DNA from: Narthecium ossifragum
Taxonomy: Eukaryota > Streptophyta > Magnoliopsida > Dioscoreales > Nartheciaceae
Assembly: GCA_963920575.1 (NCBI GenBank)
Contig: OY986969.1
Coordinates: 6,086,001 to 6,150,000, forward strand
Reading direction: 5' to 3'
DNA: 64,000 nucleotides
The first letter of the stretch is position 1; each line of letters begins with the position of its first letter. The notes beneath the pieces are model-generated. The model did no database searches. It was not told where the DNA came from and worked only from the letters and a program-made list of their open reading frames with translations. A program made the position numbers and the translations under genes. Below, piece by piece: positions 5,617-50,354 of the stretch.

Positions 5617-6971
5617 ACCACATGCATGTGTATGACAGAAAGTGAGAATGTCATGAACTTCTGACTCATGCACATATCATCTAATTACCTGATCAGAGCA
5701 ATGCTTAAACAATTCAGGGTCTTCCCTTATATAATATTTAATCTGAGAAAAGAATCTATTTTTAGCATTTTTAGACCATGAATCGGGAAGCTTGCCTGAA
5801 ACAAGATAATTCAGTATATGTGCGTACGAAGGCTGTGAAAGACGAGTCATCTGAAAGAGATGCTCATCGGGAAAGGACGTATCAACAGTAGTGTTATCAA
5901 GAATATGTTCCAAAGGAAGGCGAGACAAGTGATCAGCAACTACATTTTCTAAGCCTTTCTTATCCCTAATCTTTAGGTCAAATTCTTGCTAAAGCAAGAT
6001 CCATCAAATCAGTCTACGTTTGGCATCCTTTTTAGCTAAAAGAAGCGGCATTATTAGTATAGATAAGGATTTGGAACCTAAGAGTTAGGGACGAAACTTT
6101 TCCAATGCAAATATTACGGCTAATAATTCATTCTCAGTAGTGGTATAATTCAATTGAGATTCAGAGAGAGTCTTACTAGCATAATAAATCACATGTGAGA
6201 TTTTGTTTACTCGTTGTCCTAAAACAGCTCCTATGGCAGAATCAGAAGCATCGCTCATAAGTTCAAAAGGTAGAGAATAATCAGGAGCATGAACTATAGG
6301 TGCGGTAGACAATAAATCACGGATAGTTTTAAAAGCAGTCAAACATGCATCATCAAAGACAAAAGGGACATCCTTGGCTAGTAATTCACACAAGGGTCGT
6401 GAAATTTTGGAAATTTTTTTAATGAATCGACGGTAGAATCCAGCATGACCTAGAAAAGAACGAATTTAACGCACAGATGAAGGTGGAGGTAATTTAGCAA
6501 TTAACTCAACTTTAGCTCTATCAACCTCTATTCCACGTTCAGAAACAATGTGTCATAAAACAATTCCTTCTTCGACCATAAAATGACTATTTTCCCAGCT
6601 CAAAACTAAATTAGTTTCAATGCAACGATCTAAAACTTTAGACATATTGTTTAAACATGATTCAAAAGAACTTCCAAATACAGAAAAATCATCCATCAAG
6701 ACTTCTAAGAATTTATCAATCATGTCCGAGAAGATGGCCATCATACACCTTTGAAAAGTCATAGGTGCATTATAAAGACCAAAAGACATCCTATGATAAG
6801 CAAAAGTACCAAAATGACACGTGAAAGTCGTCTTCTCTTGATCTTGAGGATCGACTCCAACTTGGTTATACCTTGAATAACCATATAGAAAACAATAATA
6901 ACTCTAACTATAAAGTCTTTCTATGATTTGATCAATGAAAGGAAGAGGGAAGTGATCTTTCCTAGTCAAAG
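5617..6971 (-). pseudogene. Element B pol, 3' part: RT C-half, RNase H, start of integrase
   Basis: Continues the RT of element B downstream of the element A insertion, beginning TRKDHFPLPF near 6966. The RT catalytic motif reads LMDDFSVFG (within 6553-6789) after the conserved MSFGLYNAPMTFQ. RNase H follows (6085-6393: VIYYASKTLSESQLNY, TTTENELLAVIFA). At 5677-5928 the linker and KYYIREDPELF lead into the integrase zinc finger; HESEVHDILTFCH is readable after an in-frame TGA near 5668. Integrase stops at the LTR junction at 5616, so the catalytic DDE core is absent. Several frameshifts separate the pieces. Confidence 0.82.
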
Positions 6972-8618
6972 TGATAAGACGTGAAAAGTGCATAAATCAC
7001 CCTTTTAACTTGGCCTTGTTAGTCTCCGAGCAAGGCCTTACTGATGGATTTTACCCTATTACAGGTACAAGTGCCCCCAACGAGGATTGGATCAAGTTCC
7101 GAGCTTAAACGACGTCATTCGGGCCAGTTTTTATGAAGAAGATCGATCCTGTATGGAAGAAGGATCGATCCTTTGAAGTGCTTTAAGAAGGAGCCAATCA
7201 GGACAACAAGGATCGATCCTAAGGCATGAGAGGATCGATCATTTTTGCGCATTTTCTCAGTGACAGAACGCAAGTTCTGAAGGATCAATCTTCACCCTGG
7301 ATAGGATCGATCACTTTTGCGCATTTTCCTAGTGACAGAACGCAAATTCTAGAGGATCGATCTCCACACACTGGAGGATCGATTTTCATCGGGGCGAAGC
7401 CAGAATTCAAGAAGAAAAGATCGATCCTTTCCTATGGGAGGATCGATCCTTCACGGGACCAGCGATCACACGAAGTGAATGATCGATCCTTCACCCTATG
7501 AGGATCGATCCTTTGATGCCAGCCGAGCAAAATCAATGGCCCTGATCTAATCCGAGTGGGGGGAGGCTTGTTGACTATAAATAGACCCCTTAGGGGGGAT
7601 TTTAGGGAGTCTTCTCTTAGTTTTCTCCAGCCCTTCTAGGTTTCTTACCCAATTGAGAGGAGGACTTCTTGGAGGGAATCCATGGGAGGGGAGCTTCATC
7701 AACCTCCATCCATGGATCCAACCAAGATGAGTAGCTAACTTCCTATCTCTTGGGATTTCCATGTAGTTGTAGGATTCTTTTGTAGTTTTCTTAGGGTTTT
7801 GATGTGTAACCTTTAGGGATGATCTATTGTATGGATTTGAGCATTATTTCTCTATCTTTGTACATGGATTTCATTTGATGAATGGATGAATGCCTTTCTT
7901 TGGTATGAGTTAGAACTTGTGCATGATAGGTGTTTGTTGTTATGCCCCAATGAGTTGGATGTGCTAGAAACACATCCAAATCTATTGGGAGGATTATTAG
8001 CCCTAGATTAGAGATTAGGGATGCTAGAACCATCCCTATCTCTCTAATCAAAGGATCCATTCTATCTTTCTCTTGCATTGGATTCGAGGTGCTAGAACCA
8101 TCTCGATCCAATGCCCGACTCCATGCAATATCTTTTTCTTGCGACGAATCGATCTTAATCGAAGGTTCGTTAGCGATGATAGAAGCTAATCACTCATTCG
8201 TCGACTTTGTGAATGTGATTATTTCCGGCGGATGATCCTAAACCGACTTCCGTTGAGCGATAAGTGAGGCTAACCACCCGCTTGTCGACTTCTTGATTTC
8301 GATCGTCCCAATTGGATTACACACCTCAATTCCTTAGGAGGCTACACTAGAACCTACAATGAAATGGAGATCCCAAGACCTCTCTATATTAGTCATCTTT
8401 CTTTTCACTTAGTTAATTACTTTAATAGTCATTAATCCAAAACCAAAATCATTTTAGCTAGTTGTTTGGAGTTATCTATCGAGTACGTTAGTCATTTCTC
8501 ATTTCCCTGCGGATCGACCCGGACTCCCGCTAGCTAAGTAGTAGTTAGTAGGATTCGGTATAAATTGTAATCTTTGACGCCCTAGTCACTTTTAACGACG
8601 AGTGGTTTGGGCGCGTCA
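6972..8618 (+). repeat. Element A 5' LTR
   Basis: 1647 bp, TG...CA ends. In order it contains an early U3 block shared with the element C LTR (CACCCTTTTAACTTGGC), the GATCGATC array (7141-7510), an AGATCTAATCCGAG-like box (7544-7556), a TATA box CTATAAATAG (7575-7584), R and U5. Its partner is at 16663-18309. Confidence 0.93.
7141..7584 (+). promoter_or_regulatory. Element A U3 promoter: GATCGATC array, GATCTAATCCGAG box, TATA
   Basis: About a dozen copies of a 12-bp near-palindrome AGGATCGATCCT and variants (GATCGATCATTTTTGCG, GATCGATCTTC) lie in 7141-7510, spaced 15-50 bp. The box at 7544-7556 and the TATA box at 7575-7584 follow. The same order recurs in the 3' LTR (array 16832-17202, box 17234-17247, TATA 17266), in both element C LTRs and in the solo LTR at 48350. 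Promoter assignment rests on the TATA box and its U3 position. The role of the array is inferred. Confidence 0.72.
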
Positions 8619-8879: not shown

Positions 8880-10559
8880 ATGAGTGTGCATGAGGATTCA
8901 GATTTAGATATCACCTTGCAAGAATTCCTAGACTCTAGGACATCTTCTAGCATACCCGTGCATAAGGATCTCCTTTTTCCTCAAATCATGGATGAGCCCA
9001 TCCCGGACCCCAATCCTAATGCCAATCCCATTCCGGACCGTAGGAGTATGAGGGATTATTATGTCCCTACTACTTTTGCACCCACATCGGGCATACAACA
9101 ACCCGTTGTTCAAGCCGCACATTATGAGTTTAAGCCTCAATTCCTTCAATTCCTTCCAAACTTCCACGGCTTGAGTAATGAGGACCCTTACTATCACTTA
9201 GAAGACTTCCTCGAAAAGAGTTCCACGGTTAAAATTCCAAACTTTACCGAGGATGCAATGAAATTAAAGTTGTTCCCATTTACCTTGAAGGGCAAAGCCA
9301 AGCATTGGTTAGGATCCCTTGAGCCCCAAACGATCACTACATGGGACCAATTACAAAGTGCTTTTCTAGAAAAGTTCTTTCCTATCGCTAAGACTCATGA
9401 AATGAGGACCCAAATTGCAACCTTTCGTCAAGAAGATGACGAACCTTTTCATGATGCTTGGGATAGGTTTAAAGAGCTTCTTAGGAAATGCCCACACCAT
9501 CAAATTCCTAAGTGGTCCCTCGTTGATTATTTTTACAATGGTCTTAGAATACGTCATCAACAAGACGTAGACACCGCGTGCGGTGGGGTATTCATGACCA
9601 ATCCATACGAAGACTCATGGGTCTTATTTGGAAAGCTTGCCATTAATTCCCAAAACCATGCCTACACTTCAAGAAATGTTAGGGAGACTTCAAGTGCTAA
9701 GGGACAATCCAACCCGAGAGGATTTTTAGAGTTATCCGAAGCTACCCGTGTTTCACAACAAATCGATACTCTAAGTAGGAAAGTTGATCAAGTTCTTGCT
9801 CATTCTTTGAATCAAACTCCTACTCCTCCTTCTTCATCGAGCTACCCACTCAATTCTCCATCATTGGGAGAACTTTGCTTCCTTTGTTCGACTCCCGGCC
9901 ACGTAGTTACCGATTGCCATTTGGCCGGTGAGTATCCGGAGCTCGTGCAAGAGCATATCAATGCGGTCTTCAATCAAGCAAAGCCTACTTATGACCCTTA
10001 TGCAAACACGTACAATCCTAGGCCTCCGATTGCGGGCAATCAAGCCCCGAGCTATCCTCCTAGGTATCAAGCGCCATATCATTCTAACCAATCTCCACAA
10101 TCTCAAACCACCTACCGGCCACCTCAAGCTCCTCAAGCATATCCACCTCAAGCCCCTCATGCATATCCCTCTAAAGTGGCGGGTTATCCACAATCCTCTC
10201 ATCCTCCAAATTGGAATCAAAGGCCACCTGGGCCTTCCCAATACCAAGCTCCCTACCAAGCCCATCAAGCCCCTCAAGCTCCTAAACGTGATCCTTGTAT
10301 TGAGGAAAGGCTTCTCAAGGCTTTGGATTCCTTTGAGACAAGTACCCAACTTTTGTATTCTCATTCCCAATCCATTGCAAAGTTGGAAGTACAAATAGGC
10401 CAATTGGCCAATACTATGGCAAGAAGGGAGGAGGGTAGGCTTCCTAGTCAACCCATAGTTAAAAGGGTGATTCCACTCACGAGGAAGTGCAAGCGGTCAC
10501 TACCCTCCGAAGTGGAAAGATTTTTCCTAATGTGGAGATGTCCAAAGACACCACATTAG
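8880..10559 (+). CDS. gag: Element A gag (capsid and nucleocapsid), frameshifted near its end
   Basis: 559-residue reading frame, structural protein of the virus-like particle. A retrotransposon gag domain occupies about residues 85-275 (NFHGLSNEDPYYHLEDF, KLKLFPFTLKGKAKHWL, AFLEKFFPIAKT). A CCHC zinc knuckle C-FL-C-STPG-H-VVTD-C lies near residue 335, followed by a Pro/Gln/Tyr-rich stretch and a helical segment (IAKLEVQIGQLA). The true gag-protease frame continues as GDSTHEEVQAVTTLRSGK, but a small indel in the AAAAGGG run near 10457-10468 throws it out of frame, so the end read here (MWRCPKTPH) is spurious. Apart from that break it is well preserved, in keeping with a young insertion. Confidence 0.9.
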   Translation: MSVHEDSDLDITLQEFLDSRTSSSIPVHKDLLFPQIMDEPIPDPNPNANPIPDRRSMRDYYVPTTFAPTSGIQQPVVQAAHYEFKPQFLQFLPNFHGLSNEDPYYHLEDFLEKSSTVKIPNFTEDAMKLKLFPFTLKGKAKHWLGSLEPQTITTWDQLQSAFLEKFFPIAKTHEMRTQIATFRQEDDEPFHDAWDRFKELLRKCPHHQIPKWSLVDYFYNGLRIRHQQDVDTACGGVFMTNPYEDSWVLFGKLAINSQNHAYTSRNVRETSSAKGQSNPRGFLELSEATRVSQQIDTLSRKVDQVLAHSLNQTPTPPSSSSYPLNSPSLGELCFLCSTPGHVVTDCHLAGEYPELVQEHINAVFNQAKPTYDPYANTYNPRPPIAGNQAPSYPPRYQAPYHSNQSPQSQTTYRPPQAPQAYPPQAPHAYPSKVAGYPQSSHPPNWNQRPPGPSQYQAPYQAHQAPQAPKRDPCIEERLLKALDSFETSTQLLYSHSQSIAKLEVQIGQLANTMARREEGRLPSQPIVKRVIPLTRKCKRSLPSEVERFFLMWRCPKTPH

Positions 10560-12596: not shown

Positions 12597-13020
12597 AAGA
12601 TCGATCCTCCAAGCGGTGAGGATCGATCCTTTATGTCCGATTGAATGTACGCTGGAACCTGGGGGCGAGTGATCGATCCTTCAATACCTCATGATCGATC
12701 ATTTTTGCGAATTTATTCGTGGCAGAGGGTTGGTTTTGAGAAGATCGATCCTTCTATCCCTCATGATCGATCATTTTTGCGAATTTATTCGTGACAGAGG
12801 GATGGTTTCTGGATGATCGATCCTTGAGCATAGAAAGATTGATCTTACTTACTTATACACGTCAGCACGACTTAAGTGAGAACCGTTATGATGCTGCCAC
12901 GTGTTCAAAAGATCGATCTTCCCTCTCTCAAGAGATCGATCTTTTGCGGGGATGGTTAAAAAAATATATAGCCGCGGGAGATCGACTTAGGGCCCCAAGC
13001 CCTAAGATCGATCATCTCTC
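12597..13020 (+). promoter_or_regulatory. Internal GATCGATC array upstream of ORF2
   Basis: About ten GATCGATC sites (12600-13015) with the same flanks as the LTR array, including GATCGATCATTTTTGCG followed by a variant of the LTR phrase GTGACAGA. A TATATAG string at 12965-12971 sits in it, followed by a C-rich leader and ORF2. Element C has an equivalent internal array at the same place. A second promoter for ORF2 is an inference. Confidence 0.55.
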
Positions 13021-13441: not shown

Positions 13442-14838
13442 ATGGTTCGCAAGCATACCGCCGCCATCAAGAAGGCCGCCGGGAAGGGCAAGGCTGCGGC
13501 ATCCTCTCCTTCTTCCTCACCAGCCGGGCAAGCTTCTTCCACACCATCATCGTAGGCGGCATCCTCTTCATCTTCCTCTGGGCCGGCCACTGATTCACCT
13601 TCTCCTCCTACACGGCCGGTCCGTGCCTCGCGTGCCCCTGCCACTTCATCCACAGCTCCGACAGCTTCCAAGAGGAAAGCCTCCGCTGCCCCTTCGTCAT
13701 CCAATCCGCGCCGATCCAAGAAGCTGAAGAAGCCCATGCCCTCCACTGCACCCACTGATGTTCGAGGCCTAGATCCGCAGTGGCGACGGGAGGTAAAACT
13801 TGAGTACACCTTTGACGTATCCTTCTTCCACACGATCGAGCATGCGCAAGATTCCGTCGCCACACTGGAAGCCCGCGGTTGGCTGCCCTTCTGCACCCCC
13901 TCCACCACTGTTTACCCACGGCTGGCCTGCATGTTCTACCAGAACATGAAGGCTATTCCCTGCGGTAATGAGAGGGACGAGGCTGGTGATGCCCCGAGCC
14001 GGGCCTTGGGCTTCACTTCGATCATTGACGGCGAGGATATCACGTTCACTGCCCGGGACGTGGCTGCACTCTTGGGTGTCCCTCGCCACTCCCCTGGTCT
14101 CCACCGAGCCACCCCTGAGGAGCTGCCTCATGAGGTGGATGCCCAGCTGCTTCTCCACCCAGATCGCACAGGAGAGGGCAAATTTGTGCGGGCAGAGCTG
14201 CCCCCTCAGATGTGGTTGATCGACGATATCTTTCGCCGAAACATTTACCAAACTGGCCACCCCAGTATAGGACTGGCAAGTGGTTGTGTTCACTATGGTT
14301 TTTGGCTAAGTCATGGTCGATCGACTTGGCCCAGTAGGTCATCGAGGACATGTCCCAGTTTTATTGTGGAGCGGTTCGGGACCGATCGGACAGTTTTAAC
14401 GATAAACTCGTCCCGCACCCCTGCCTTATTTCGGCTTTTCTCGCTAGCCAGGACCTAGTCCCTGAGGGCGAGCCTACTGTTTCGGACGCGGCCTTCAGGT
14501 TTGCCCGCTTCGGTAAGGCCACCTGGGCCAAGGTCCTTAGCCATATGAGGAGAGCCGCCCATCCTCGTCCTCAGCCGAGACCCAGTAGGACCCAGTCGAC
14601 CCCAGAGTTCGGGCCTGTTGAGCACCCGACTATGGGTGAGATCTATAGGGAGCATCGGGCATTCCAGGACGCGGTGCTGCAGCAGTTGGACGCGGTAGAC
14701 GCGCGCATCGGCGCCCTACACCAGGTCACGTCGAGTATCCTTGCCCGTCTCGACGCCATCCACCCTCCTCCTCCACCTGTCACAGATCTCGCTTCTTCCC
14801 ATCCGTTTACTTGTTCAGAGCCGGCACCTCAGGGATGA
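13442..14838 (+). pseudogene. Element A ORF2, GC-rich, plant-transposon-protein-like
   Basis: Starts MVRKHTAAIKKAAGKGKAA, a basic Ala/Ser/Pro-rich N-terminus, then a folded region (EARGWLPFC, ARLACMFYQNM-like, LGFTSIIDGEDITFTARDVA, ALLGVPR). This resembles the putative plant transposon protein domain often found beside Athila-type elements. The C-terminal part (14350-14838) has a helical segment (FQDAVLQQLDAVDARIGAL). Breaks: TAG at 13553, a frameshift near 14260 and TAG at 14335. I see no membrane segment, so an envelope role is not supported. The high GC content differs sharply from the AT-rich flanks. Element C keeps only the start of a matching ORF (MRPKKKLAAKK). Confidence 0.65.
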
Positions 14839-16650: not shown

Positions 16651-16662
16651 AGTTAGGGGGTG
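16651..16662 (+). other. Element A 3' polypurine tract
   Basis: AGTTAGGGGGTG ends immediately before the 3' LTR and is preceded by GCTCGAGGACTAGCAAAG. It is the expected plus-strand primer site. The same block precedes the element C 3' LTR. Confidence 0.88.
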
Positions 16663-18309
16663 TGATAAGACGTGAAAAGTGCATAAATCACCCTTTTAAC
16701 TTGGCCTTGTTAGTCTCCGAGCAAGGCCTTACTGATGGATTTTACCCTATTACAGGTACAAGTGCCCCCAACGAGGATTGGATCAAGTTCCGAGCTTAAA
16801 CGACGTCATTCGGGCCAGTTTTTATGAAGAAGATCGATCCTGTATGGAAGAAGGATCGATCCTTTGAAGTGCTTTAAGAAGGAGCCAATCAGAACAACAA
16901 GGATCGATCCTAAGGCATGAGAGGATCGATCATTTTTGCGCATTTTCTCAGTGACAGAACGCAAGTTCTGAAGGATCGATCTTCACCCATGATAGGATCG
17001 ATCACTTTTGCGCATTTTCCCAGTGACAGAACGCAAATTCTATAGGATCGATCTCCACACACTGGAGGATCGATCTTCATCGGGGCGAAGCCAGAATTCA
17101 AGAAGAAAAGATCGATCCTTTCCTATGGGAGGATCGATCCTTCACGGGACCAGCGATCACACGAAGCGAATGATCGATCCTTCACCCTATGAGGATCGAT
17201 CCTTTGATGCCAGCCGAGCAAAATCAATGGCCCAGATCTAATCCGAGTGGGGGGAGGCTTGTTGACTATAAATAGACCCCTTAGGGGGGATTTTAGGGAG
17301 TCTTCTCTTAGTTTTCTCCAGCCCTTCTAGGTTTCTTACCCAATTGAGAGGAGGACTTCTTGGAGGGAATCCATGGGAGGGGAGCTTCATCAACCTCCAT
17401 CCATGGATCCAACCAAGATGAGTAGCTAACTTCCTATCTCTTGGGATTTCCATGTAGTTGTAGGATTCTTTTGTAGTTTTCTTAGGGTTTTGATGTGTAA
17501 CCTTTAGGGATGATCTATTGTATGGATTTGAGCATTATTTCTCTATCTTTGTACATGGATTTCATTTGATGAATGGATGAATGCCTTTCTTTGGTATGAG
17601 TTAGAACTTGTGCATGATAGGTGTTTGTTGTTATGCCCCAATGAGTTGGATGTGCTAGAAACACATCCAAATCTATTGGGAGGATTATTAGCCCTAGATT
17701 AGAGATTAGGGATGCTAGAACCATCCCTATCTCTCTAATCAAAGGATCCATTCTATCTTTCTCTTGCATTGGATTCGAGGTGCTAGAACCATCTCGATCC
17801 AATGCCCGACTCCATGCAATATCTTTTTCTTGCGACGAATCGATCTTAATCGAAGGTTCGTTAGCGACGATAGAAGCTAATCACTCATTCGTCGACTTTG
17901 TGAATGTGATTATTTCCGGCGGATGATCCTAAACCGACTTCCGTTGAGCGATAAGTGAGGCTAACCACCCGCTTGTCGACTTCTTGATTTCGATCGTCCC
18001 AATTGGATTACACACCTCAATTCCTTAGGAGGCTACACTAGAACCTACAATGAAATGGAGATCCCAAGACCTCTCTATATTAGTTATCTTTCTTTTCACT
18101 TAGTTAATTACTTTAATAGTCATTAATCCAAAACCAAAATCATTTTAGCTAGTTGTTTGGAGTTATCTATCGAGTACGTCAGTCATTTCTCATTTCCCTG
18201 CGGATCGACCCGGACTCCCGCTAGCTACGTAGTAGTTAGTAGGATTCGGTATAAATTGTAATCTTTGACGCCCTAGTCACTTTTAACGACGAGTGGTTTG
18301 GGCGCGTCA
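16663..18309 (+). repeat. Element A 3' LTR
   Basis: 1647 bp, the same length as the 5' LTR. Differences seen by eye include G/A near 16892, changes in the array near 16978-17050, T/C near 17167 and T/C near 18180. All are substitutions. It is followed by the CAAAG target duplication. Confidence 0.93.
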
Positions 18310-18314
18310 CAAAG

Positions 18315-18660: not shown

Positions 18661-18748
18661 TGGTGCTTTCAGTGAAGAAGTGCTGGAGTAGAAGAGAGCG
18701 GTTGAAGGAGTTCAACCATTCAAGAAACAGATTCAATCGCCGCTGTGT

Positions 18749-19350
18749 CTAGACCGATTGATCAGCCGTCTGGCCTATTGATCGATATATTTGAGATGTG
18801 TGTTGTGATGTCATCTTCGATTGTGTAATTTCTAACATAACATCATCATCATTATCAGAGTCATAATCATGCAAAATATCAGAGAATTCATCAAACATCA
18901 TGGTATGTGATCTAGTATCGATACATTCAGCCAAAGTATCACTATTATAACATTCAAGATCATCATGCTCAGGCAAGCATGCAATTTTGAAAATATTCAA
19001 TTTCACATGCATATATCCAAACGAAACATCCATAACATCAGTTCGATAATTTATGCAGGCATTTGCTGTCACCAAAAAGGGACGTCCTAAGATAATAGGT
19101 ACAATCTTTTTGCAGTGGACAACATGCTCCATATCCAAGACAACAAAGTCAACAGGAAAGAAGAAATTGTCCATCTTAACTAAAACATCTTCTAATATAC
19201 CTCTTGAAGTCTTAATAGATCTATCAGCTAATTGCAGAATTACTGATGTCTTTTTAAGCTCTCCCATACCAAATTCTTTATAAAGATAATAGGGCATAAG
19301 GTTTACACTGGCAGCTAAATCAAGAAGGGCACCATCTATATGATAGTCTC
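18749..19350 (-). pseudogene. Element B aspartic protease with altered active site
   Basis: Retropepsin-like domain: GALLDLAASVNLMPYYLY near 19270-19330, then LQLADRSIKTSRGILEDVLV and IILGRPFLVTANACI. The active site reads DLAAS where element A has DLGAS, so the invariant Gly is Ala. A frameshift near 19345 separates it from gag. An acidic tail follows at about 18850-18970. Confidence 0.82.
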
Positions 19351-21205
19351 CTATACAATAAGGTGATCTTTCAGTTTGGGCAGTGTATCATGTTTCAGAA
19401 TTGAACTAACTTGCTCAGTGAGAAAAATCTTTTTGGATACTTTGGATTTGGCTTGGCATTTATGGGTACATAGATCTTTTCTATTAACTTTTTTAAAGGT
19501 TTCAAGGATTTCTTCGGCAGTCTTTCGGGATTTCAACGTTGAAGAAGGGTCCTTGAGGGCTGCTAGAAAAGGTACTTTTGGAACATATTTAGCTAGGTCA
19601 TGCTCTCTAGAATTAGTTGGATCATAATCAGGTGGAAGAAGAGGGTCATCTCGAGACGGTCGATTGATCGTCGGATCGGGCGATTGATCGTCCGAACTGA
19701 TAGGCTCACCAATTTGATTATTTACGGTTTTTCCACTTCTAAGGGTCACAACAGCTTTTGCACTCTCAAAGTTCCGACCTTCTACATAATGCTGACCTCT
19801 AGGGTTGGTCACAGGTTGACTTGGCAAGTGACCTTCCTCTCTCTTGGCTACCGTGTCAACTAGTTGCCCAACTTGAGTCTCAAGTTTAACAATGGATTGG
19901 GTATTAGAATTACATTGGTTCTCCATTCTATAAACATTATTCTGAATTTTAGAAATATCACTTTTTAGGCCACTTCTCATTCCACTTAAATTTTCATTTA
20001 TGGATGAAAGGATGGAACTCAAAGTGGGTTCAGGGTAGTTTGGCCCGGAGGGGCTGAAGTTGGTTGTGAAGGTACCCAGGATTTGAATTTGCAGAAGTTT
20101 TAGATGGGTATTTGAAAACAGAAGGATTAGCTGTATCGTTTTGTCCTTGAAAGTTACTTGACTGTTTCGGCTTCCAACTAAAATTAGGATGATTTCTCCA
20201 ACCTGAATTATAGGTATTAGAATAAGGATTATTTTGAGGTTTGGAAAAACTATAAGTCGTATTAACTTGTTCCTGAACAAAGTCAAGGAAATTGGGAGCT
20301 AAGTGACAATCAGTGATGTGATGATCAGAGCTAAGACAAAGGGCACAGGTCTCAGAAGAAGTGTGAGGTAATTGTTGAGTAAGAGTTTGACATGTTTTCA
20401 ACTGATTTAAATCTTTAGTTAGGAGGGCTACATGTGCTGAGAGACTTTGGACTTCAGAAATTTCATGAATTCCCCGAGAATTACAAGCAGTGGTGGACCG
20501 ACTCCAAGAATTTTCAGCAAGCTTGTTATACATTTCCCAAAGAGCAGTCCATGGCTTACTAAGAACAACACCTCCGCAGCATGTTTCAACCATTGTCATA
20601 TAACAATCATTAAGACCATTATAAAATGAATGGGCTAACTGCCACTCAGGTACCTCTTGATGGGGACACTCTCTAAGAAGATTCTTAAATCTTTCCCAAG
20701 CTTCATGAAACATCTCATCTTCATTTTGCTTAAAAAAGATAATCATTAAACAATAGTTTTGAGTTTTAATGATAGGAAAATATTTTTTAAGGAAGGCATC
20801 CTGAAGTTGATCCCATGTTGAAATCCAATTTGGAGCTAAGGTTTGAAGCCAATGTTTAGCCTTGTCTTTCAAAGAAAAAGGGGAGAGCTTGAGTCTAAAG
20901 ACATCATCATAAAAATGCTGAAGTTTGAACATGGACAGAATTTCAAGAAAACTAGCAATGTGTTCATAGGGATCCTCGCTCTCACGCCCATAGAAAGAAG
21001 GCAGAGCTGTAATCCAGTTAGGCTTAATGTCATAATGTGTAGCATTAATGGCAGATGGGTTGATACGAGAACCATAACTGTAAGGCCCAGGTAGAAAGTG
21101 ATTCATAATTGGGACTTCTCTATTATTGTTATTATTACCACACCTACTCATATTAGCATTAAGGTCAATGACGCGTCCCTCGTTTTCAGCCATTAAAGAT
21201 TGCAA
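19351..21205 (-). pseudogene. gag: Element B gag, frameshifted
   Basis: The 391-residue frame starting at 21205 has the gag domain (LPSFYGRESEDPYEHI, FRLKLSPFSLKDKAKHWL, KKYFPIIKTQ) and a CCHC knuckle C-AL-C-LSSD-H-HITD-C. A frameshift near 20080-20100 moves to the frame ending at 19351, which carries IVKLETQVGQLVDTVA, AVVTLRSGKTV and LTEQVSSIL. The layout is as in element A gag, but the sequence is clearly diverged. Confidence 0.87.
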
Positions 21206-21831
21206 GTTACTTAAGGATTCTTGGTAATTACTTAAAGATTTCTGTCCTAAGGTTCTAGCTGTTCAAAGTGTGGCTTCTATTTCTAGATCCAAAGGTTCTA
21301 GCAGGTTATTTAGGGATCGTCTACCTTGCATGCAAGATCACACCAAAAAGAGAAAAAGAAAATAGAATATTCAGAGGAGAGGACAAAATCCAGAAAACAA
21401 CGATTGAAACGAAAAATTTTGAAGCATGAAAACTAACCTATCTGCGCTCACGATCAATCTGACAGTCGATTTGATGTTCGACCGTGGGACTATGCAACCT
21501 TACTTGAAGAAGCGAGGGTCGATCGTTGCATCGACCCTAAGAAGCTTTTTTCGTGACAAAGGCTCATGGTCGATCCTGCGGACGATATCACAGTCGATCA
21601 TGGATATCGTAGAGCACAACGGTCGATTCGGCGGACAATGTCACGGTCGACCGTCAGTCTGCTTCAAAGTAAAATCGTTCCACTGCTGCAAAAAATTCCA
21701 GAAAATTGTCAGAAAAATCCTAAAAAGTGTAAAATAAAGTAATTAAAAATAGAGAAAGATAAAAATCTAACTATGCTCAGAAAAAGAGTTAAGAGAAAAT
21801 TAAATCGATACTCCTTAAAAATCAGAAAATT
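21206..21831 (-). other. Element B 5' leader with TCGA-rich array
   Basis: Leader between the primer site and gag. Within 21440-21660 are about ten GTCGAT, TCGATC and GGTCGACC words, some pairing into imperfect palindromes. The rest is AT-rich without ORFs. Confidence 0.6.
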
Positions 21832-25559: not shown

Positions 25560-26775
25560 CCAAGGTGATTACGTCCAAAAAGTTGTCACAGCGGTCGCAG
25601 CAGTATAGCCTAAGAGGGCGGTCGTATCCACAGAGAGACAGTGGATAGGATTACACAATTATGAGAGGATAAATGTAAAATAGTAAAAAGTCGATTATAT
25701 TAGAACCGAAAACAAGCAAAGGTTGAGTGTTTTTAGTGAAGTTTCTTAAAGGTTAATGTGGCATGGCATTGAAGATCTCTCACTTGAACTCGAGTATGTC
25801 TCTCACCCTCTATCCTGTTAGATACACAATTGGCGGATTCACATCTCAATCTCGCCAATCAGAATATATTGAACTACAAATCATAGCAAGCAACAATACT
25901 AGCTCTCAAGGATCATTCTCCCTTTATGAATCATGCAACTATCACCTTGTTCAATTAGATTCAAAGACGACGATATATTTAAGTGATAACGCAACAAAGA
26001 TATTAAACCCTAAGACGATGATATGCTTAAACAATAACGTAGCAGAAAATCTGATTAACAAAGGAACAACAAATTAAACCATGCCCAAGAACATCACTGA
26101 TTATATATGAGAAGAATCAAATCCCCACTTAGGCACATTCAAAAGACTAAAACAAATAAGAAAATAGATCCATACGAGAGTTGTATCAACAATAAAATCA
26201 AAAGAGGATTTCAGATGAGGAGAAAAACTCTTGTTCAAGATTGAGCATCCCTCCGCCTTGCCAAAAGGATCTACTCGTCCATGGATGATGAAGAAATCTC
26301 CAAAAGGTCTCCAAGAAGTCTTCCAAAAGTCCCCAAAAAGCTCTCATTGAATAGCCCTAAATTTCCTATTTATAAGCTCCAAAGGTCTTCAACTAGTATT
26401 AGATCTGCACCCTTGATTTTGCTTAACTGCTATAAAATGATCGATCATTTAGGGATCATGATCGATCATTTTATCCCGTAGAATTGTCATGCCCTGAAGA
26501 TGATCGATCATTTAAAACACGGCTCTCGGTCATCTCTGGCTGTATAAAATGATGGATCATTACAGGGGATGAAGATCGATCATTTGTCCTGCGTATTTTC
26601 TCTTTTGCCATTCAGACAGGGCAATTGGTATTAAACATACCATAACGTCCTCTAGAAAACTCGGAATCATGAACTATGTCCTACAGAAACTAGACTTCAA
26701 GAGATTTCCAGCCATATATGACACATCATCTGGTTCTTCATGAGCAGGTACAGTTTAATCTTCCAAGTTGACCCC
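25560..26775 (-). repeat. Truncated Athila-type LTR
   Basis: Read on the minus strand it parallels the solo LTR at 48350-50072: AGATTAAACTGTACCTGCTC and AACCAGATGATG near 26720-26770, CATGATTCCGAGTTT, a palindrome array (ATGATCGATCATTT type, 26438-26585), an AGATCTAATAC box (about 26395-26406), TTATAAATAG (26366-26376), and a CTGTGGATACGAC block near its 3' end. Its 5' (U3) end is cut at 26775 by Tekay-type insertions. Confidence 0.75.
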
Positions 26776-29267
26776 TGTCACACCCCGACCCAGAAAACCC
26801 ATCCGAGCCGAGGCGTGAGGGGAAACCTATCACTATTCATCTTCAAATCGGCGCGATACAAAGCGGAAGAGACGGATAATTTAAACAAATGTATTCCAGA
26901 GGCGAAACAGATTCAATTATAATATATCATCAAGTTGTACAGTTCATAATTGATACAAAGTCTTCCAAGAGACAGATTTATACAAAAGTCCCAAAGTCCT
27001 CAAAATGTTTACAACATATACAAACATATCAAAAGGGTACAACCGGTAATCCTCCAAGCAACCTCAAGCACCTCTGGATGTACTCGCGCCGCCAAAGGCC
27101 GATACTGCCGGCTCCACTGAAGAAGAACTGCCGCCTGCACCTGCAAACGCAACCTGGGTAGGAGTGAGCGATAAGCTCAGTAGGGTTCTACTCTACGGCA
27201 CACTGAAAGGAGGAAAACAACAACAGTGTTGTCTCCCAGCCTAAGTCTAACGGATGCCACGGGTCCCATAACCCATCGATGTCTCAAGGGCTCCTGTCAT
27301 GAACCTCTCTCTTGGACACGTTACCAAGATCACCCTAAGCACTGACAGGGGAACAGTACCATGCAGGATCACCCTTACCCAGCAGGGATACCACTGCTTG
27401 GGGACCACGTCGGGAACACATCGATTGCATCCTTAGCACTTGGCATTGGAAGACAACACGACCTCTAAACCTCAAACACTGATCAGAGTCAACTATCGTG
27501 AATCCACAAAGACATGAGACTTGATCATACAATCACACTCTACTCCTGATTACCCATCGTCGGTCCTAAGGCTAGATCCGAGCTACCCGAGAGCCTCGGA
27601 TCGGTGACCCAAACCATCGCCCGCCTATCCTCAAATGCCTCTAATGCACACAATGCATGAGCTTAGGCAAACATCTATACTAGATGTCTCTATATGTCAC
27701 ATCAACAGTCAAGAGTTCCACATTTATACAATAGCCCTCGGCATTCGCCGGCAAGAGGCTAAGGTTCCACAATTCCTCATTAACTAGCACTCATAGCTAG
27801 TTAATGGCTAGGCAATCAACTAAGCATTTAACTACAATCACACGTGTATTAAATGCAAACAAAGCCATAGATTTACCCATAAAGAGAGTTACTCAAATCG
27901 ATTCTCAAACCCGATGAAAATCCTTTGGAAACCTCATCAAATCCCCCCCACATGCTTCCCAACATGTTTAGATACTAATCCCAAATCAAATCCATCCAAG
28001 AAAAGCCAGAAAACCGAGTCCAAGGGGTTACGGACGATGTCACGGTCGATCCGGGGACCGTGAGACCACGGACGATGTCACGGTCGATCCGGCGATCGAC
28101 CGTGAGACCAAGGCGAAGAAAACCAAGGACGACGGTCGATCCACCCATCGACCGTGCGAAACCCAAAACCAAACAGCGCATGACGGTCGATGCAACGGTC
28201 GACCGTCAGGTAAATGGCGAAAAGGAGAAGATCCCGTGGTCGATCCATCCATCGACCGTGGGAGTCCAAAATCCCGATAGAGCCCGACGGTCGATGCGAT
28301 GGTCGATCCGACGGTCGACCGCCAGGCCCAGAAAGAGTAAAACAATACTCGACGGTCGATGCACCGATCGACCGTCGAGCCATGAAAGAGCGTATCAATT
28401 CTTGACGGTCGATGCACCGATCGACCGTCGAGCCTCAGGCACAGTTCATCGGAACAGTGCCGGAAATCCAATTTCTTGGATTTCAAAGATCAAATCTAGT
28501 TGGAAAACAATGAGATTTTGCAAGCAAGAGTAATTCTCGATGGGGAATCCAATGGTATAAAGAAATCAATTTTTTAAGGATAAATCTCCAACTTATGTCA
28601 AAACGGCCGAAAACCGATAAACGGCGGCAATACAAGATTCAACCGATAAAATACGGAAATCGCGAGGTAGGAATACTTGAAATCATCCATAACACATGCA
28701 CAATGAATTACACAATATTCTAAGAAGTACTCCTACATCGTAAAGGCATTAAACCTATCCTAGGAGAACCCGATCCGAAGATCGAGGTAGAAACACCTAC
28801 TTGAAGAGATAGGGCAGCTCCTCCACGCATCCCCCAAGTTCGATCGCCGGAAGCCGCTCCTCGAAATCCACACTCCGATGCCCTAGCACCCAGCCGCAGG
28901 AGAGAGAGAGAGAGAGAGGAGAAAGAGAACGGCGGGAGAAGAAAGAAGGAAAGAAGGAGAAAGAAGGAGCTTAAATAGAAAGCTGGAAACGATCACAGCC
29001 GTCCGATTCGATCTCTCCCGATCGAGCTCCGATCTTCCGATCGGAAGCGCCCTAAAGGTTCTAATCAAACACATACATCAATCAAAGGCCATGTGTGCAA
29101 CGCGGGTGTGAAACTGACCACCAGGGAGCATATTTACCAAAATGTCACTGGAGTCAAAAGCAACGATGCGATCAACCGATCGCATCCCAAGGTCAACCGA
29201 GCCAAACCACAAACCCAGACCCTCGACCTAACGTGGTCGGACCAGGTTGGAGGTACAGGTCCTCACA
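26776..29267 (-). mobile_element. Solo Tekay-type LTR (LTR1), 2492 bp
   Basis: On the minus strand it starts TGTGAGGACC (ending at 29267) and ends GGGTCGGGGTGTGACA (at 26776). It is flanked by ACCCC at 26771-26775 and 29268-29272. No internal region accompanies it, so it is a solo LTR left by recombination. A TCGAT/GATCGACC array of long imperfect palindromes lies at 28030-28440. A purine-rich GA run is near 28900-28970. Minor reading frames in the array are repeat artefacts. Confidence 0.85.
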
Positions 29268-29381: not shown

Positions 29382-32352
29382 TGTCGCGCCCCTACCCGCG
29401 AAAACCCAACTGGGCCGGGCGACGCGAACCGGAACCTAACGAAACGAGAAAAATTTGACAAGGGTTCCCTCTAACCTATTGGTCTCCCTAGCAATTCATC
29501 AAAACACCCTCAAATTTCAAAACTATAAGTTACAGAACCTCGAACCACATATTACAAAACCCAAATTTAATATACATATACTCGGAGAGGGGAAGATTCG
29601 AATACAACATTTAAACACTCCCGTAGGAGACTAACTAACCAAGGGTTTAAAGCAATAAAGGATCACCACTTCTCAGACTCCGCCTGGCGCCGCCGCACCG
29701 CCGACCAACTGCCCGATAGGGGCCACCAAAGTGGAGTTAACGTCTGCACCTGCAAAACGCAGCCCGGGTTGGAGTGAGCACTAAGCTCAGCAGAGAAACT
29801 ACACTACGACACACAGAAGGAAGAGGGGAACACAATAGTGTCGCCCTCAAGTAAGACCTGGATGTATACAAAGGTGCCATAACCCCACCGGGTGTCCCTG
29901 AAGACCACGATCATGGTCTTCCAGAAGAATTGGTCACATGATGGGTCACACTCAGTAAGCAGGAACCAACAGTGCTGACTCACAAGCAGGAAACATGCAC
30001 CGCTGAGTAGGCAACCCCTCTACTCAAGAGTCATCACAATGAAACACCGGCTACACCTCAGAATCCGACTCGAGGCCGACACGACCTCTACAATCATCAA
30101 GCAACATGTGTACCAGTTATCTAGGCCTATCACTAAAATTGACTGTACACCACAATTCAAACCAGGTCCAAACCGGTCTTAGGGCTAAATCCGAGCTTCC
30201 AAGCCTCAGGACGGCGACCCACAGATCGCCCACGCCCTAACCTTATGCAACTAATGCATAATAAGGATGCATGCGATGAACATACGTATAAACAACAGTT
30301 AAGCACGCAACAATATGTGATGATAACATAACAAGGTATGGGCTCGGCACTCTGCCGGCCTGGGGTGGTGAACATGTAAATAAGGTCAAGAACTGCTGCA
30401 GTGGTACCACCACCAACTGCCAGCCAGTTCACAAGCCACTTGCATCGGGAAGCAGCCCCGCAAACAACAGGAGACGAACCACACAGATAAAGGTCGTCGA
30501 CGCACGCCGGCATGCAAGGCTAAGGAAAGATGTAGGGCCACTCGCCCACTTATTCTAAACATCCCAGGAGTCATCACTCTCCTGGTTCACCACTACCCCT
30601 AATATGGGGCTAGCATGTTTAAGGACAATTTTGTAAGATTGTAAAGAAAACCGCACATGTGAAGCCCCACGGGCAAACCCATTGAAAACGCCCCTCAGCC
30701 ACTAAGAGATCGATCTCTCCCAGAGAAGATCGATCTTCTTAGTGCTTGGGAGAAAACTCGTCCCTGTCAACCGGAAGAGATCGGTCTTCTCCAGCAGAAG
30801 GATCGATCTTCTTCATGACACGGACCAAATTTGATAAATCAATCAAAATCCTATTGAAAATAAGTTGGATTAAAACCAAACTTTTCAGATCTCTTCCAAA
30901 GATCATCAAGATCATCTCAGCCAAGAATCAACTTAATTAAATAATTAAAAACCACTTAATTACACTAATCAAGCTAACTGTCCTGTTTCAGCACAGACAG
31001 TCCATTTCATTCACCAGAAATTGTACATAGCTCTAAAAATCTTGAAACCGGTTGGAAATGAAAGCTAGCTTATGGATCTACAACTTCCATTCAAAACAAC
31101 AACTCAGATCATGCACGTACAGCTCGGCACTCATGTTAGAACACCACTGTTCTAATTAAACCAGAAAATCCGAAATTAACATAGAGAAATCTTGCTTAAA
31201 TCCACATCAAATCCAAACAAAATCCTACCAAACTTTATTCAGGTGAAAAACAAGCTATCAAGCATCAGCTAGCATAGTTTAATTGAAGAACAATGAATTA
31301 AACAACACAAAAACACCTAATCTAAGGTTTAATGAAGAATCCTACCAAACTACGCTAATCCACGTTTGATTCTCAATCAAACCGTGCAAGGAGGGTATAG
31401 ACGCTAGATCAAACTCCAAACGAGAATTTCTAAGGTAGGAGGAGAGGAGAAGAAAAACCGGAAAAACAGAGGGGTCTCGGGTTACTTATACGCTCAAGTC
31501 CGATTGGTTCGCGTCCTTATCCGGACACGTCAGCCGCGTCCTTAACCAGACAACTGACACAGGTCCGATTGATCGACCGATCGCCTCCAGTATCCGGCCA
31601 ACCAAGAACAGAGGAGAAGAAAATCCACAGAAAACCATCGATCAAAACCAAAAACCACATAAGCAAGCAAGAAATCTCATCGGAAGTCCGTTGGCATCCA
31701 AAGATCTAAGAAACTGCAGCAAAGAAGAGAGAAGAAACATCAACACGCAGTCATGAGATCAACAGACTCCAAGATATCATGCGTCAAAGCCCGTCCTAAA
31801 ATCCTAATCAAAGATTAGGGTAGAGTTCCGTACCTATGGCGTCGAGATCGTCTCCTATTTCCCCTTTTCCGGCCGCAGTTGTCGTCATCAACCTCTCCGT
31901 CTTTGCCGCAGTCGCCCCGCCGCGGTCGCCAAGTTCGCCTCTCCTCTCCGGTCACAGTGGCGTCCGCCGTCGTCGCCTCTCTCCCTCTTCCTCTCTATCA
32001 CGGCTGAAAACCTCACGGAGGAAAGGAAAGGAAAAGGGCTCTTATTATTGAACGGCTCAAGATTAGATCTTGACCATCTGATCAACCGAATCTGATCCTA
32101 GCCGCTCAGATCTCGATCCTTACGATCGAACCCAGATCCTCCGAGCTATGATACTCCTAATAGTCTAGTCAAGCACATACATCATTACAAGGCCGTGTGT
32201 GCGCTACGCGTGTGTGAAACCAACTCCGCATAGGGTAATTTACCAAATTACCCCCGGAGCCGCAACGATCAAAGGAGATCGCGAAGCAAGGCCAACCGAA
32301 CCAGACCCTCGACTGACACGGTCGGACCGAGTTGGAGGTACGGGTCCTCACA
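29382..32352 (-). repeat. Tekay-like element 3' LTR (LTR2), 2971 bp
   Basis: Begins TGTGAGGACC at 32352 and ends GGTAGGGGCGCGACA at 29382 (minus strand). It is directly preceded by a polypurine tract in the typical chromovirus context GGGACGAAATTCCTTTAAGG. A small GATCGATC array is at 30705-30815. The 5' LTR partner is not in the window. Confidence 0.85.
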
Positions 32353-35189: not shown

Positions 35190-37114
35190 TGACTCACCTT
35201 GAAATGCGTCGTTAATTATCTCAAAGGCGGACAAAACAAAATACCGAACTATTACTTAACTACAACGTAGGTAGTAGGAGTACGGGTCGAGTCCACAGGG
35301 AATTTGATGGTTGAATTACAAAGATGATCTCTACAAGAGTTGTATAAAATTTGAATGGTTTTGATTAACTAGTTAACTAAAGTATTTTAAAAACAAGTAA
35401 AGAAGGTTGTTTATTAGGATAAAGGTCCTAGGGGATTTTGATCCGAATTAGGGTCTAAGGATGTTCTCTATAAATCAAGATGCATGACTTCTAAATGAGA
35501 TGGTCAAAATAAGAGATCGACGAGCATAGGATTAGTATCGCTCGTCGCTAATGAGATGTCGGGTTAGGATCAACTCATCGCATTTAGCACAAGGGTAGGA
35601 TCCAGGATCAAGGCTTTAATTCGATCATGGCTCAACAATGGCCGGCTAGGGTCCTATTGTTGGCAACAATGGCCGGCTTAGGGTCCTATTGTTAATTAGA
35701 GATCTAGGCTTTGCATGAATAAGAATGCTAGATAGGGTAGAATGAGGCTTGGATGGTTCTAGCACCCAAGTAGTGGATAGGATAGCTATGGCTTGGGTGG
35801 TTCTAGCACCTCAAGATCATAGCTTACCTTGGGTGGTTCTAGCACCTCAAGATCCTATCCCTAGATCAAGGAGAATTGGCCATGGTTCTAGCATGGACCT
35901 CTCTTTGAGACATTACATCAAACACCTATCAAACATCTATTTCACAAGTAATTACATATAAGAATTTATCATGAAACCATTCGATTATTTAATTCCTTAA
36001 TGAATTATGATTCAAACCCTAGAATTAGGCATGATTCTAATATGACTTCTTCTTTGGGGAAATGAATCAAAGACTAAACAAGCATGTAATCTCTCTACAT
36101 ACACTTGTAAGAAATAAAGCATTCATTGAAGAAAACTAAGAATTACATGTGAATTCATACAAAATCCATCATCACAAGAGTCATTACATGGAGAATTATA
36201 AAGAAATCAAAGATCTAACCCTAAGACATCACAAAATTCCCAAGGAAGAGGGATTTAGCTACTCATCTTAGGTAGGATCTCCATGGAAGATGAGGCTTTA
36301 CCCATCTTCTCCATCAAAATCCAACCCTTGAAGCACTCAATCTCTCTCTCACACTAAGGGGAAAGAAGGCTGGACAAAGGAGGGAACAAGAGTGGAGAAA
36401 ATATCCTAAAATTAGAGCCAAAACCCCTATTTATAGGCCCCAAGTCGTGGACCCTCGGATTAGATCCGAGCCGTCCATTTTTAACCATCAGCGATCTTGG
36501 ATCGATCCGAAATAGGTTTGGATCGATCCAAGATGTCAAAATCTGGGTTTCGATCAACTTGGATCGATCCAATATGGGTCTGGATCGATCCAATATGGGT
36601 CTGGGAATCATAGCTCTCTGGAAAGGGTTTTGGATCGATCCATACTGGTTCAGATCGATCCGAATATGTTTGGATCGATCCAGACTGGTTTTGGATCGAT
36701 CCGATGTGTAAAAACTGCAAAACTGGTCCCTGAAAAGGGTTTTGGATCGATCCAAACTAGTTTGGATCGATCCAGAATATGTTTGGATCGATCCAGACTG
36801 GGTTGGATCGATCCAAATATTCTGGATTCATCCAGACTGGGTCTGGATCAAGTCTGGATCAATCCAGACTGGGTCTGGATCAATTCTGGACCCATCCAGA
36901 CTGGGTCTGGTATGGATTCAATTCAGACTGGGTCTGGTTCAATCCGAATATGGCAGATTTTGTGCAATTTATGTCTTTTAAGCCCGGAATCGATTCAACT
37001 CTCTTTGGAAACTCTTGTACTTGAAATAACATGAAAAGATATTAGAAATGCATTGCTTGAGAGCTAACAAAGCCAAGTTAAATGGGTGAATTATGCATAT
37101 TTTGTGACTCATCA
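35190..37114 (-). repeat. Element C 3' LTR, 1925 bp
   Basis: Minus strand: starts TGATGAGTCACAAAATATGC and ends AAGGTGAGTCA. The palindrome array at 36493-36825 has about 12 TTGGATCGATCCRR units. The CTCGGATTAGATC box (reverse of GATCTAATCCGAG) is at 36454-36466 and the TATA box at 36427-36436. Near the U5 end CTGTGGACTCGACCC parallels element A. Short plus and minus frames over 36350-37034 are array artefacts. Confidence 0.88.
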
Positions 37115-37136
37115 CACCCCCCAACTTGAACTTTGC
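37115..37136 (-). other. Element C 3' polypurine tract
   Basis: Minus strand AAAGTTCAAGTTGGGGGGTG directly before the LTR, with GAGGACTAGC upstream as in element A. Confidence 0.85.
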
Positions 37137-38959: not shown

Positions 38960-39390
38960 GTGGAATTGGGATCGATCCAATAAGGACTTGGATCGATCCC
39001 AAACACGTGTCATGATCGTAGATGGTAACTTGAGTGACGTGGCAAGGATCTGGATCGATCCCAATTAGACAAGGATCGATCCACACGGTGACAGAATGGC
39101 CCTTTTTTTAGGTCATGTTGGATCGATCCAAACAAGGATTTGTATCGATCCGAACACACGGTTCCGGATCGATCCAGGACAATTGGGATCGATCCAAATT
39201 GTCCCACCAAGTATTGTGCTTATTGAAAGATAAATGTGGATCGATCCAAATTAAATGTGGATCGATCCTACCAGTGACAGAACGTATGTCCTGGAAGACC
39301 GTTTTGGATCGATCCATTAAGGATTTGGATCGATCCAACATGTGTTTGTGGATCGATCCCAAGTAAATATGGATCGATCCACCCTGGAGC
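38960..39390 (-). promoter_or_regulatory. Element C internal GATCGATCC array
   Basis: About 14 GGATCGATCC units in 430 bp between the gag-protease tail and the ORF2 start, the same place as the array at 12597-13020 in element A. Flanks are of the element C type (TTGGATCGATCCAA), matching its own LTR array and not that of element A. Promoter role for ORF2 is inferred; no clear TATA box was found. Confidence 0.5.
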
Positions 39391-42202: not shown

Positions 42203-42207
42203 CTACC

Positions 42208-50072: not shown

Positions 50073-50354
50073 GGGGGCACAACAAAAGGAGATGCAAGAT
50101 GCCCCCAGCCCCTAAACTCAATGAAGACCACTAATTGGCACATCAACTATTGGCCATGCATCAGTTGACACTGTTGGCGCATCAACTACATCTGGAGGTG
50201 TAGGAAGAGGAGCTGGAAGAGGAGTTGGAGGTGTAAGAAGAGGTGCTGGAAGAGGAGTTGGAGGTGTAAGAAGAGGTGTTGGAAGTGGAAGAAGATGAGT
50301 TGGGACTGTAGGAAGAGGCACACAACCTGAAAGTGTAAGTGTTTGCAATTCATT

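Follow-up and report, generated by a model that had tools for sequence, protein, structure and literature searches.

Arrays of paired palindromes with a constant core and family-specific arms in retrotransposon long terminal repeats of Narthecium ossifragum

Several retrotransposons in a 64-kb window of Narthecium ossifragum contig OY986969.1, the whole stretch of DNA analyzed here and the single source of all array counts, carry dense arrays of the 8-bp palindrome GATCGATC, most of them in long terminal repeats (LTRs). An initial annotation had drawn attention to these arrays, and our analysis confirmed that they are real and stronger than first described. Their sites are paired at a characteristic spacing and embedded in symmetric arms that are specific to each family, and this organization is common to two groups of elements that we provisionally label Athila-type and Tekay-type. 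As to the mechanism, we infer from these features that the arrays are probably homotypic enhancer clusters for host transcription factors.

The window contains GATCGATC in 103 exact copies, compared with a mean of 1.13 and a maximum of 5 in 100 dinucleotide shuffles, and ATCGAT in 129, compared with 17.7. All 103 exact copies lie inside 13 arrays summing to 4,063 bp, and none was found in the remaining window. In a ranking of 8-mers on both strands, GATCGATC came second, preceded by its own one-base shift, ATCGATCC. The arrays contain 236 GATC tetranucleotides, 206 of which are part of doublets, indicating that the doublet, not the lone GATC, is the unit retained. On the + strand there were 33 matches to a triple pattern, defined as site, 11-16, site, 30-60, site.

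The Athila-type arrays belong to elements A and C, the solo LTR S48 and the LTR fragment S26. The 5' LTR of element A (6972-8618, + strand, TG..CA) is 99.2% identical to the copy at 16662-18309, and the target duplication CAAAG is present at 6967-6971 and 18310-18314. Its array A5 (7141-7510, + strand) contains 10 exact and 2 one-mismatch sites with the arm consensus AAG/CTT, at successive spacings of 22, 48, 22, 50, 22, 50, 22, 42, 22, 40 and 22 bp, and array A3 of the 3' LTR (16832-17201, + strand) contains 12 exact sites. A further array, Aint (12599-13013, + strand; 10 exact sites and 1 other), lies inside the element, upstream of an open reading frame (ORF; 13556-14458) with a subthreshold PF20167 match. 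The LTR copies of element C (35816-37115 and 40903-42203, - strand) are 95.6% identical. Array C5 (36500-36813, - strand) has 12 exact sites, a variant at 36857 and TTG/CAA arms; array C3 (41587-41901, - strand) has 11 exact sites and 2 variants (41760 and 41945); and array Cint (38970-39379), inside the element, has 13 exact sites and 1 other, with C-type arms. The figure of about 12 sites per LTR given earlier for both elements was therefore accurate. The sites reported in the solo LTR at 48350 and in the LTR ending near 26775 were likewise recovered. The former, S48 (48350-50072, + strand, TG..CA, duplication GGGGG), has an Athila-type start and a U3 array at 48725-48940 (+ strand) of 7 exact sites, the first overlapped by a variant, with GTCN/NGAC arms. 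The latter, S26, has a U3 array at 26439-26581 (- strand) of 4 exact sites and 1 other, with AAAT/ATTT arms.

At their starts, the LTRs of A, C and S48 show 73-79% identity in alignment and that of S26 aligns to S48 at 80%; the start of element D was compared by eye. The sequence TTTTTGGCGCCGTTGCCGGGGA, which resembles a primer-binding site (PBS), follows position 8618 and has a near match at ~21840; we take it to be the Athila-type PBS, and the Athila label for A, C, D, S26 and S48 is provisional. The leader of element D, between the PBS-like sequence at ~21840 and gag (21262-20030, - strand), contains TCGAT-type dyads at 21440-21670 (- strand), including GGTCGA-N8-TCGACC at 21517. Further GATTGATC-type dyads were noted in element D downstream of gag, at 18745-18800 and 19640-19700, one of them within an open frame.

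The Tekay-type copies (T28, T30, T44/T45 and T50/T51) are mostly LTRs, to which no pol was assigned; their label is also provisional and rests on the initial annotation and on a sequence next to 32355 that we presume to resemble a polypurine tract. Array T30 (30708-30808, - strand) has 3 exact sites and 1 other. Arrays T45 (45627-45721, - strand; 4 sites) and T44 (44841-45067, - strand; 7 exact sites and 1 other) are located in the same LTR, T45 closer to its start, and both have GA/TC arms. The solo LTR at 50355-52560 (+ strand, TG..CA, duplication TCATT) also carries two arrays, T50 (50566-50640, + strand; 3 sites) and T51 (51014-51296, + strand; 7 exact sites and 1 other). The site forms described earlier for Tekay-type LTRs, namely, GAGATCGATCTC, AAGATCGATCTT and GGTCGATC/GATCGACC, were all retrieved. 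Array T28 (28044-28429, - strand) consists of 7 GGTCGA-N8-TCGACC dyads at 28082, 28134, 28185, 28238, 28301, 28354 and 28407, with spacings of 51-53 bp and once 63 bp. This 20-bp dyad, with seven copies in T28 and one in D, is expected 0.005 times per 64 kb (200 two-base-block shuffles). Neither T28 nor D contains an exact GATCGATC or belongs to the set of 13 arrays.

The spacing of the sites is bimodal. Among 69 distances between adjacent exact sites in 11 arrays (the near-duplicates A3 and C3 were omitted), 36 fell at 19-23 bp, 1 at 24-38 bp, 21 at 39-52 bp and 11 above. In 2,000 simulations of random placement, the best 5-bp bin held at most 19 distances and the 24-38 bp range always at least 5. 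The same distribution was observed in the Athila-type arrays (27 of 50 distances at 19-23 bp, 15 at 39-52 bp, 7 larger and 1 in between) and in the Tekay-type arrays (9, 6, 4 and 0 of 19, respectively). There is thus a paired-site grammar common to both types, which the initial annotation had overlooked.

The claim that a constant core is flanked by family-specific sequence held and can be extended, as the arms are dyad symmetric. In the 9 of 11 arrays that have 4 or more exact sites, the mean Jensen-Shannon (JS) divergence between the left arm and the mirrored right arm was 0.23 within arrays, 0.97 between arrays and 1.42 when the right arm was left uncomplemented; only 1 of 20,000 permutations was as low. 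Within single sites, the arms showed no covariation once the array consensus was accounted for (80 sites, P = 0.42-0.81), and cruciform formation or self-pairing of single sites was rejected on this ground. If a palindrome is maintained to pair with itself, covariation is expected at the level of the individual site, whereas the consensus of a homodimer does not demand it, and the combination of symmetric arms with the lack of site-level covariation therefore points to a homodimer motif and not to base pairing. Furthermore, the two arrays of one element have matching arms: the divergences in the four elements concerned were 0.12, 0.22, 0.34 and 0.16 (mean, 0.21), compared with 1.01 for other pairs, and this pairing of the 8 arrays was the best of 105 possible matchings. 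Similar arms also occur in both lineages. The AAG/CTT-like arms of the Athila-type array A5 resemble those of the Tekay-type arrays T50 and T51 (JS divergence, 0.14-0.17) as closely as T50 resembles T51. Together with the presence of GGTCGA-N8-TCGACC in both T28 and D, this favors host factors over element factors as the proteins that may read the arms.

Plotting the arrays relative to TATA boxes, as the initial annotation had suggested, revealed a constant distance in one homologous promoter type. In six Athila-type LTRs of four families (A5, A3, S48, C5, C3 and S26), 64-65 bp separate the end of the last site from TATAAATAG. For array A5, this box is located at 7576-7584 (+ strand), 65 bp past the last palindrome; the distance is 64 bp in S48 and, downstream on the - strand, in S26, C5 and C3. 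A, S48, C and S26 also have a GATCTAATCCGAG-type box (7544-7556 in A; degenerate in S26), whose position between the array and the TATA box is nearly fixed. T50 is followed 24 bp downstream by the TATA box TATAAAGAA, and T51 starts ~350 bp past this box in the same LTR. A TATATA-like box at ~12965 lies 23 bp past site 12934 of Aint, with one more site (13006) downstream of it, and a TATA box, TATAAAAAT, lies 38 bp past the + end of Cint. A TATA-like box precedes T28 and T51, T44 is downstream of the other array of its LTR, and for T30 a downstream position depends on a weak box. The restriction of the arrays to U3 has to be abandoned: Aint and Cint are inside elements, and T28, T30, T44 and T51 are in the body of Tekay-type LTRs.

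We then considered whether the arrays are alike by descent, using the spacers between sites (66 array pairs, the best 25 by z score being inspected). Arrays A5 and Cint have the stretch CAGTGACAGAACG in common, in opposite orientation (0 of 300 shuffles scored as high), and similarity was also evident between A5 and Aint (1 of 300) and between D and Aint (0 of 200); the stretch common to A5, Cint, Aint and D centers on TGACA. The similarity of A5 to S48 was weaker (z = 3.0, below the largest shuffle). Between the spacers of C5 and Cint nothing was detectable, with 281 of 300 shuffles scoring equally. As these spacers are unrelated and those of Cint resemble A5, the C-type arms of Cint did not arise by simple array duplication. 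Copying of whole arrays as the source of like arms failed in the same manner for T45/T44 (38 of 300) and T50/T51 (298 of 300) as for C5/Cint, and is supported by the spacers for A5/Aint. For D and T28, the similarity was weak with the cores masked (4 of 200 shuffles scored as high) and not significant with the cores kept (score of 41, compared with a null mean of 36 and a maximum of 47). Between the lineages, T30-C5 was the only one of the 66 pairs to exceed all of its shuffles. The earlier statement that inheritance does not suffice to explain the arrays therefore probably holds between lineages, but much is inherited within the Athila-type. Since core and spacing are alike and spacers are mostly unrelated, the favored interpretation is that the likeness of Athila-type to Tekay-type arrays would reflect convergence or rare exchange, and that within the Athila-type would reflect inheritance.

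Clustered binding sites, as proposed in the initial annotation, remain the best reading of the constant core, the spacing grammar, the symmetric family-specific arms and the TATA distance. Each GATCGATC is a predicted docking site of a homodimeric DNA-binding protein, and sites would be used pairwise, about two helical turns apart. The arrays would act from upstream of the element promoter (in the Athila-type, at a distance of 64-65 bp to the TATA box) or from near secondary start regions. The putative binding protein is most likely host encoded, and is probably a small paralogous set with a common core and differing flank preferences. Unrelated retrotransposon lineages may thus have converged on identical factors to drive their transcription.

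A number of observations weigh against clustered sites for host factors. The array-to-TATA stretch is homologous in A, S48, C and S26, so that the constant distance was inherited and not repeatedly invented; in terms of evidence, it is one event, not four. When a TATA-like box was sought beyond four internal or LTR-body arrays in element orientation, it was found only for Aint, and not for Cint (- strand), T44 or T51, and no such box was present within 187 bp beyond T45. Aint itself is ~5 kb downstream of the LTR promoter. Helical phasing of the sites is loose (R = 0.48 at 10.5 bp) and a period of 13 bp gave a higher value (R = 0.65), so that strict phasing was rejected as unconvincing. Arm symmetry in one array could come from a palindromic founder site via unit duplication. 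The T30-C5 spacer match between lineages covers 14 bp and scored 23, compared with a largest value of 21 in 100 shuffles. The plant GATC motif, YVGATCBR, is a further case in point: it is reported to act downstream of the start site, within ~500 bp, and to have minimal effect upstream (PMC11525189). A5, A3, C5, C3, S26, S48 and T50 are upstream of a TATA box, and T51 would fit the downstream position in part. YVGATCBR matches 47 of the 103 sites, namely, 36 of 36 in C5, Cint and C3, 7 of 7 in S48, 0 of 32 in A5, A3 and Aint, 0 of 4 in S26 and 4 of 24 in the Tekay-type arrays, with none in T30. Finally, in Tekay-type pairs the outer arms of each unit complement one another specifically (12 units; in within-array tests, P = 0.005-0.015 for 12-20 nt and P = 0.07 for 8 nt; in pooled tests, P = 0.0003 for 16-20 nt), a property that protein-binding sites would not require.

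This last finding bears on the idea that the arrays act in RNA, their pairs folding into hairpins of genomic RNA that serve packaging, dimerization or translation control. The arrays would enter genomic RNA via the leader, the internal region or the 3' U3. In agreement, facing arms across the long gaps of Tekay-type arrays showed no complementarity (6 gaps, P = 0.67-1.0), the 416-nt T28 stretch folds to -202 kcal/mol, a value without shuffle control, and the dyads of element D lie between PBS and gag, which is where retroviral packaging signals are located. However, the split by lineage was made post hoc, after a swap test on all arrays, and hairpins in all arrays had to be rejected: ungapped tests gave P = 0.18 for outer and P = 0.50 for inner arms, and folding of swapped halves gave P = 0.127 (10 arrays with at least 2 pairs). 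Within arrays, the arms of Athila-type pairs are no more complementary to their own unit than to others (29 units, P = 0.14-0.84), and the pooled values for this type (P = 0.0001 for 8 nt, P = 0.035 for 12 nt) reflect the family arms they have in common; their long-gap control at 16 nt gave one P value of 0.023. The outer arms of T28 reached P = 0.089 (7 units), single sites do not covary, no Rfam family was found at threshold within the arrays, and a hairpin does not require a conserved stem sequence. We consider a role in RNA unlikely as an explanation of the arrays as a whole, although the Tekay-type units appear to be extended hairpins, through RNA function or through template switching during reverse transcription.

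Template switching is also part of the proposal that slippage, template switching and gene conversion in reverse transcription spread functionless palindromes and unit repeats. The array of element A does change faster than the rest of its LTRs, which differ at 8 of 381 array positions and 5 of 1,267 elsewhere (P = 0.003); for element C, the figures were 7 of 356 and 10 of 924 (P = 0.27). C5 and C3 moreover differ by 41 gap bases, corresponding to the gain or loss of ~20 bp units. A mutational by-product is nevertheless improbable, given the identical 8-bp core and spacing across lineages with mostly unrelated spacers, the constant TATA distance and the ratio of 103 exact to 12 one-mismatch sites in the arrays (more strongly changed sites being left out of this count), at a time when arms and spacers drift. 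We attach a similarly low probability to recognition by element-encoded proteins, whereby each family's own DNA-binding protein would read its arms in the way of virus-specific iterons, which are tied to viral replication proteins. The family specificity of the arms, their likeness between both arrays of an element and the C-type arms of Cint on an A-like spacer are what this would predict, but unrelated lineages have similar arms (A5 and T50/T51) or dyads (D and T28). Furthermore, neither lineage yielded a DNA-binding gene within the window, Tekay-type copies being mostly LTRs with no assigned genes, and the ORF behind Aint matched PF20167 at 27.2 bits, below the cutoff of 45, and had no homologue at an E value of 0.001.

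The variants also bear on methylation, which the initial annotation had raised as a switch. Central-CG transitions account for 6 of the 12 one-mismatch variants (P = 2e-4), or 5 of 11 once the C5/C3 duplicate is removed (P = 0.0012), an excess expected if these CGs are methylated in the germ line, and the data are thus compatible with a methylation role of the sites. That the arrays exist as a CG-containing repeat recognized by the plant to direct methylation is nonetheless very improbable: any silenced LTR should undergo methylation decay, and elements would be expected to lose a silencing site, not to multiply it or to converge on one. Clustered sites for host factors thus remain our preferred explanation.

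To place the arrays among known systems, we compared them with repeats and motifs described in plants and plant viruses. GATA factors that recognize GATC cores exist in plants (PMC11525189 and PMC6918188), and the GATC motif is reported to activate in a dose-dependent manner according to its copy number (PMC11525189). The arrays resemble it in having a GATC core in several copies and, for T51 and T28, in being downstream of a TATA-like box, but differ in that their unit is the paired 8-bp doublet GATCGATC; the GATA-factor motif may be taken as a lead only. In rice, GATCGATC, MTCGATCN and NMTCGATC are listed as predicted promoter elements (PMC6918188; for GATCGATC also PMC8207140), which the authors of PMC6918188 tie to GATC-core GATA factors. 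The word is identical and the context is again that of plant promoters, but the rice elements are single predicted motifs in genes, not pair arrays in LTRs, and their factor is only putative. Tobacco Tnt1 is a retrotransposon of the copia lineage, whose U3 contains tandem BII boxes that differ from the arrays in sequence, and we know of no BII dialects common to several families. Repeated boxes upstream of an LTR TATA box, as in Tnt1, were found in A, C, S26 and S48 (64-65 bp) and in T50 (24 bp), and not in T45. The BII boxes of the Tnt1 promoter are said to bind defense-induced DNA-binding factors (PMC3316501). As YVGATCBR fits 47 of 103 sites and the doublet is the unit retained, the arrays may best be set beside repeated promoter boxes of the Tnt1 kind, outside the GATC-motif class.

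Among intergenic repeats of geminiviruses and nanoviruses, 14 of 105 tested were reported to enhance transcription (PMC554758). These are similarly short, promoter adjacent and in some cases palindromic, but their sequences, as given there, are different, and they overlap virus-specific iterons (PMC554758). For the SIRC repeats of Arabidopsis, an origin from miniature inverted-repeat transposable elements has been proposed, and the abstract of that study mentions neither a palindromic core nor a TATA-anchored grammar (PMC10342631). No description of such arrays in LTRs was found among the titles and abstract openings of the top-ranked matches in the open-licence literature. A search of viral contigs retrieved no relative of gag and no exact Athila-type PBS; it returned 4 matches to a chromovirus-like motif, all without GATCGATC, and 22 stretches with the triple pattern. 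In prokaryote genomes, which served as a control for the 33 matches of this window, 107 such stretches were present in 257 billion bases, some of them dense, with up to 19 sites in 500 bp. The gag of element A has 127 related proteins at 25-56% identity, often over partial length, and the organisms named among the matches listed are plants.

Several other features of the window were noted. Rfam snoR71 (RF00097) was found above threshold in antisense within the gag of A (9399-9505, - strand) and of D (20652-20758, + strand), so that this plant small nucleolar RNA family may include retrotransposon gag sequence. Element A seems to have inserted (6971-6972 and 18309-18310) into the reverse-transcriptase region of a different element on the - strand, which may be D; one flank contains RVT_1 (6553-6903) and RNase H (6085-6465), and the opposite flank was judged by eye only. 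S48 appears, also by eye, to interrupt the zinc-knuckle coding end of a MuDR-type transposase ORF (46063-50077; PF03108 and PF10551), which has 87 related proteins, the named organisms being plants. Repeat blocks, tandem or nested, are present outside the LTR arrays at 1044-1492 (~150 bp units, 99%), 1628-2217 (~240 bp, 87%) and 2425-2950 (~93 bp, 82-85%).

A broader proposition, which we put forward tentatively and consider doubtful in its entirety, is that the host has an LTR enhancer language. It would consist of a few palindromic dialects built on the GATCGATC/TCGAT core with a fixed pair spacing, read by paralogous host proteins and adopted convergently by distant lineages, with one dialect per element, including internal arrays that would drive a second promoter. 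The hairpin units of the Tekay-type raise the separate question of an additional role of these sites in RNA. If the proposition is true, this cis-code would let the plant's own factors switch on several unrelated retrotransposon families together, and LTR sequence would provide a testable path to the factors responsible. The arrays would, in addition, offer a clean natural case of regulatory convergence, in which spacing rules and flank dialects separate protein recognition from nucleic acid folding.

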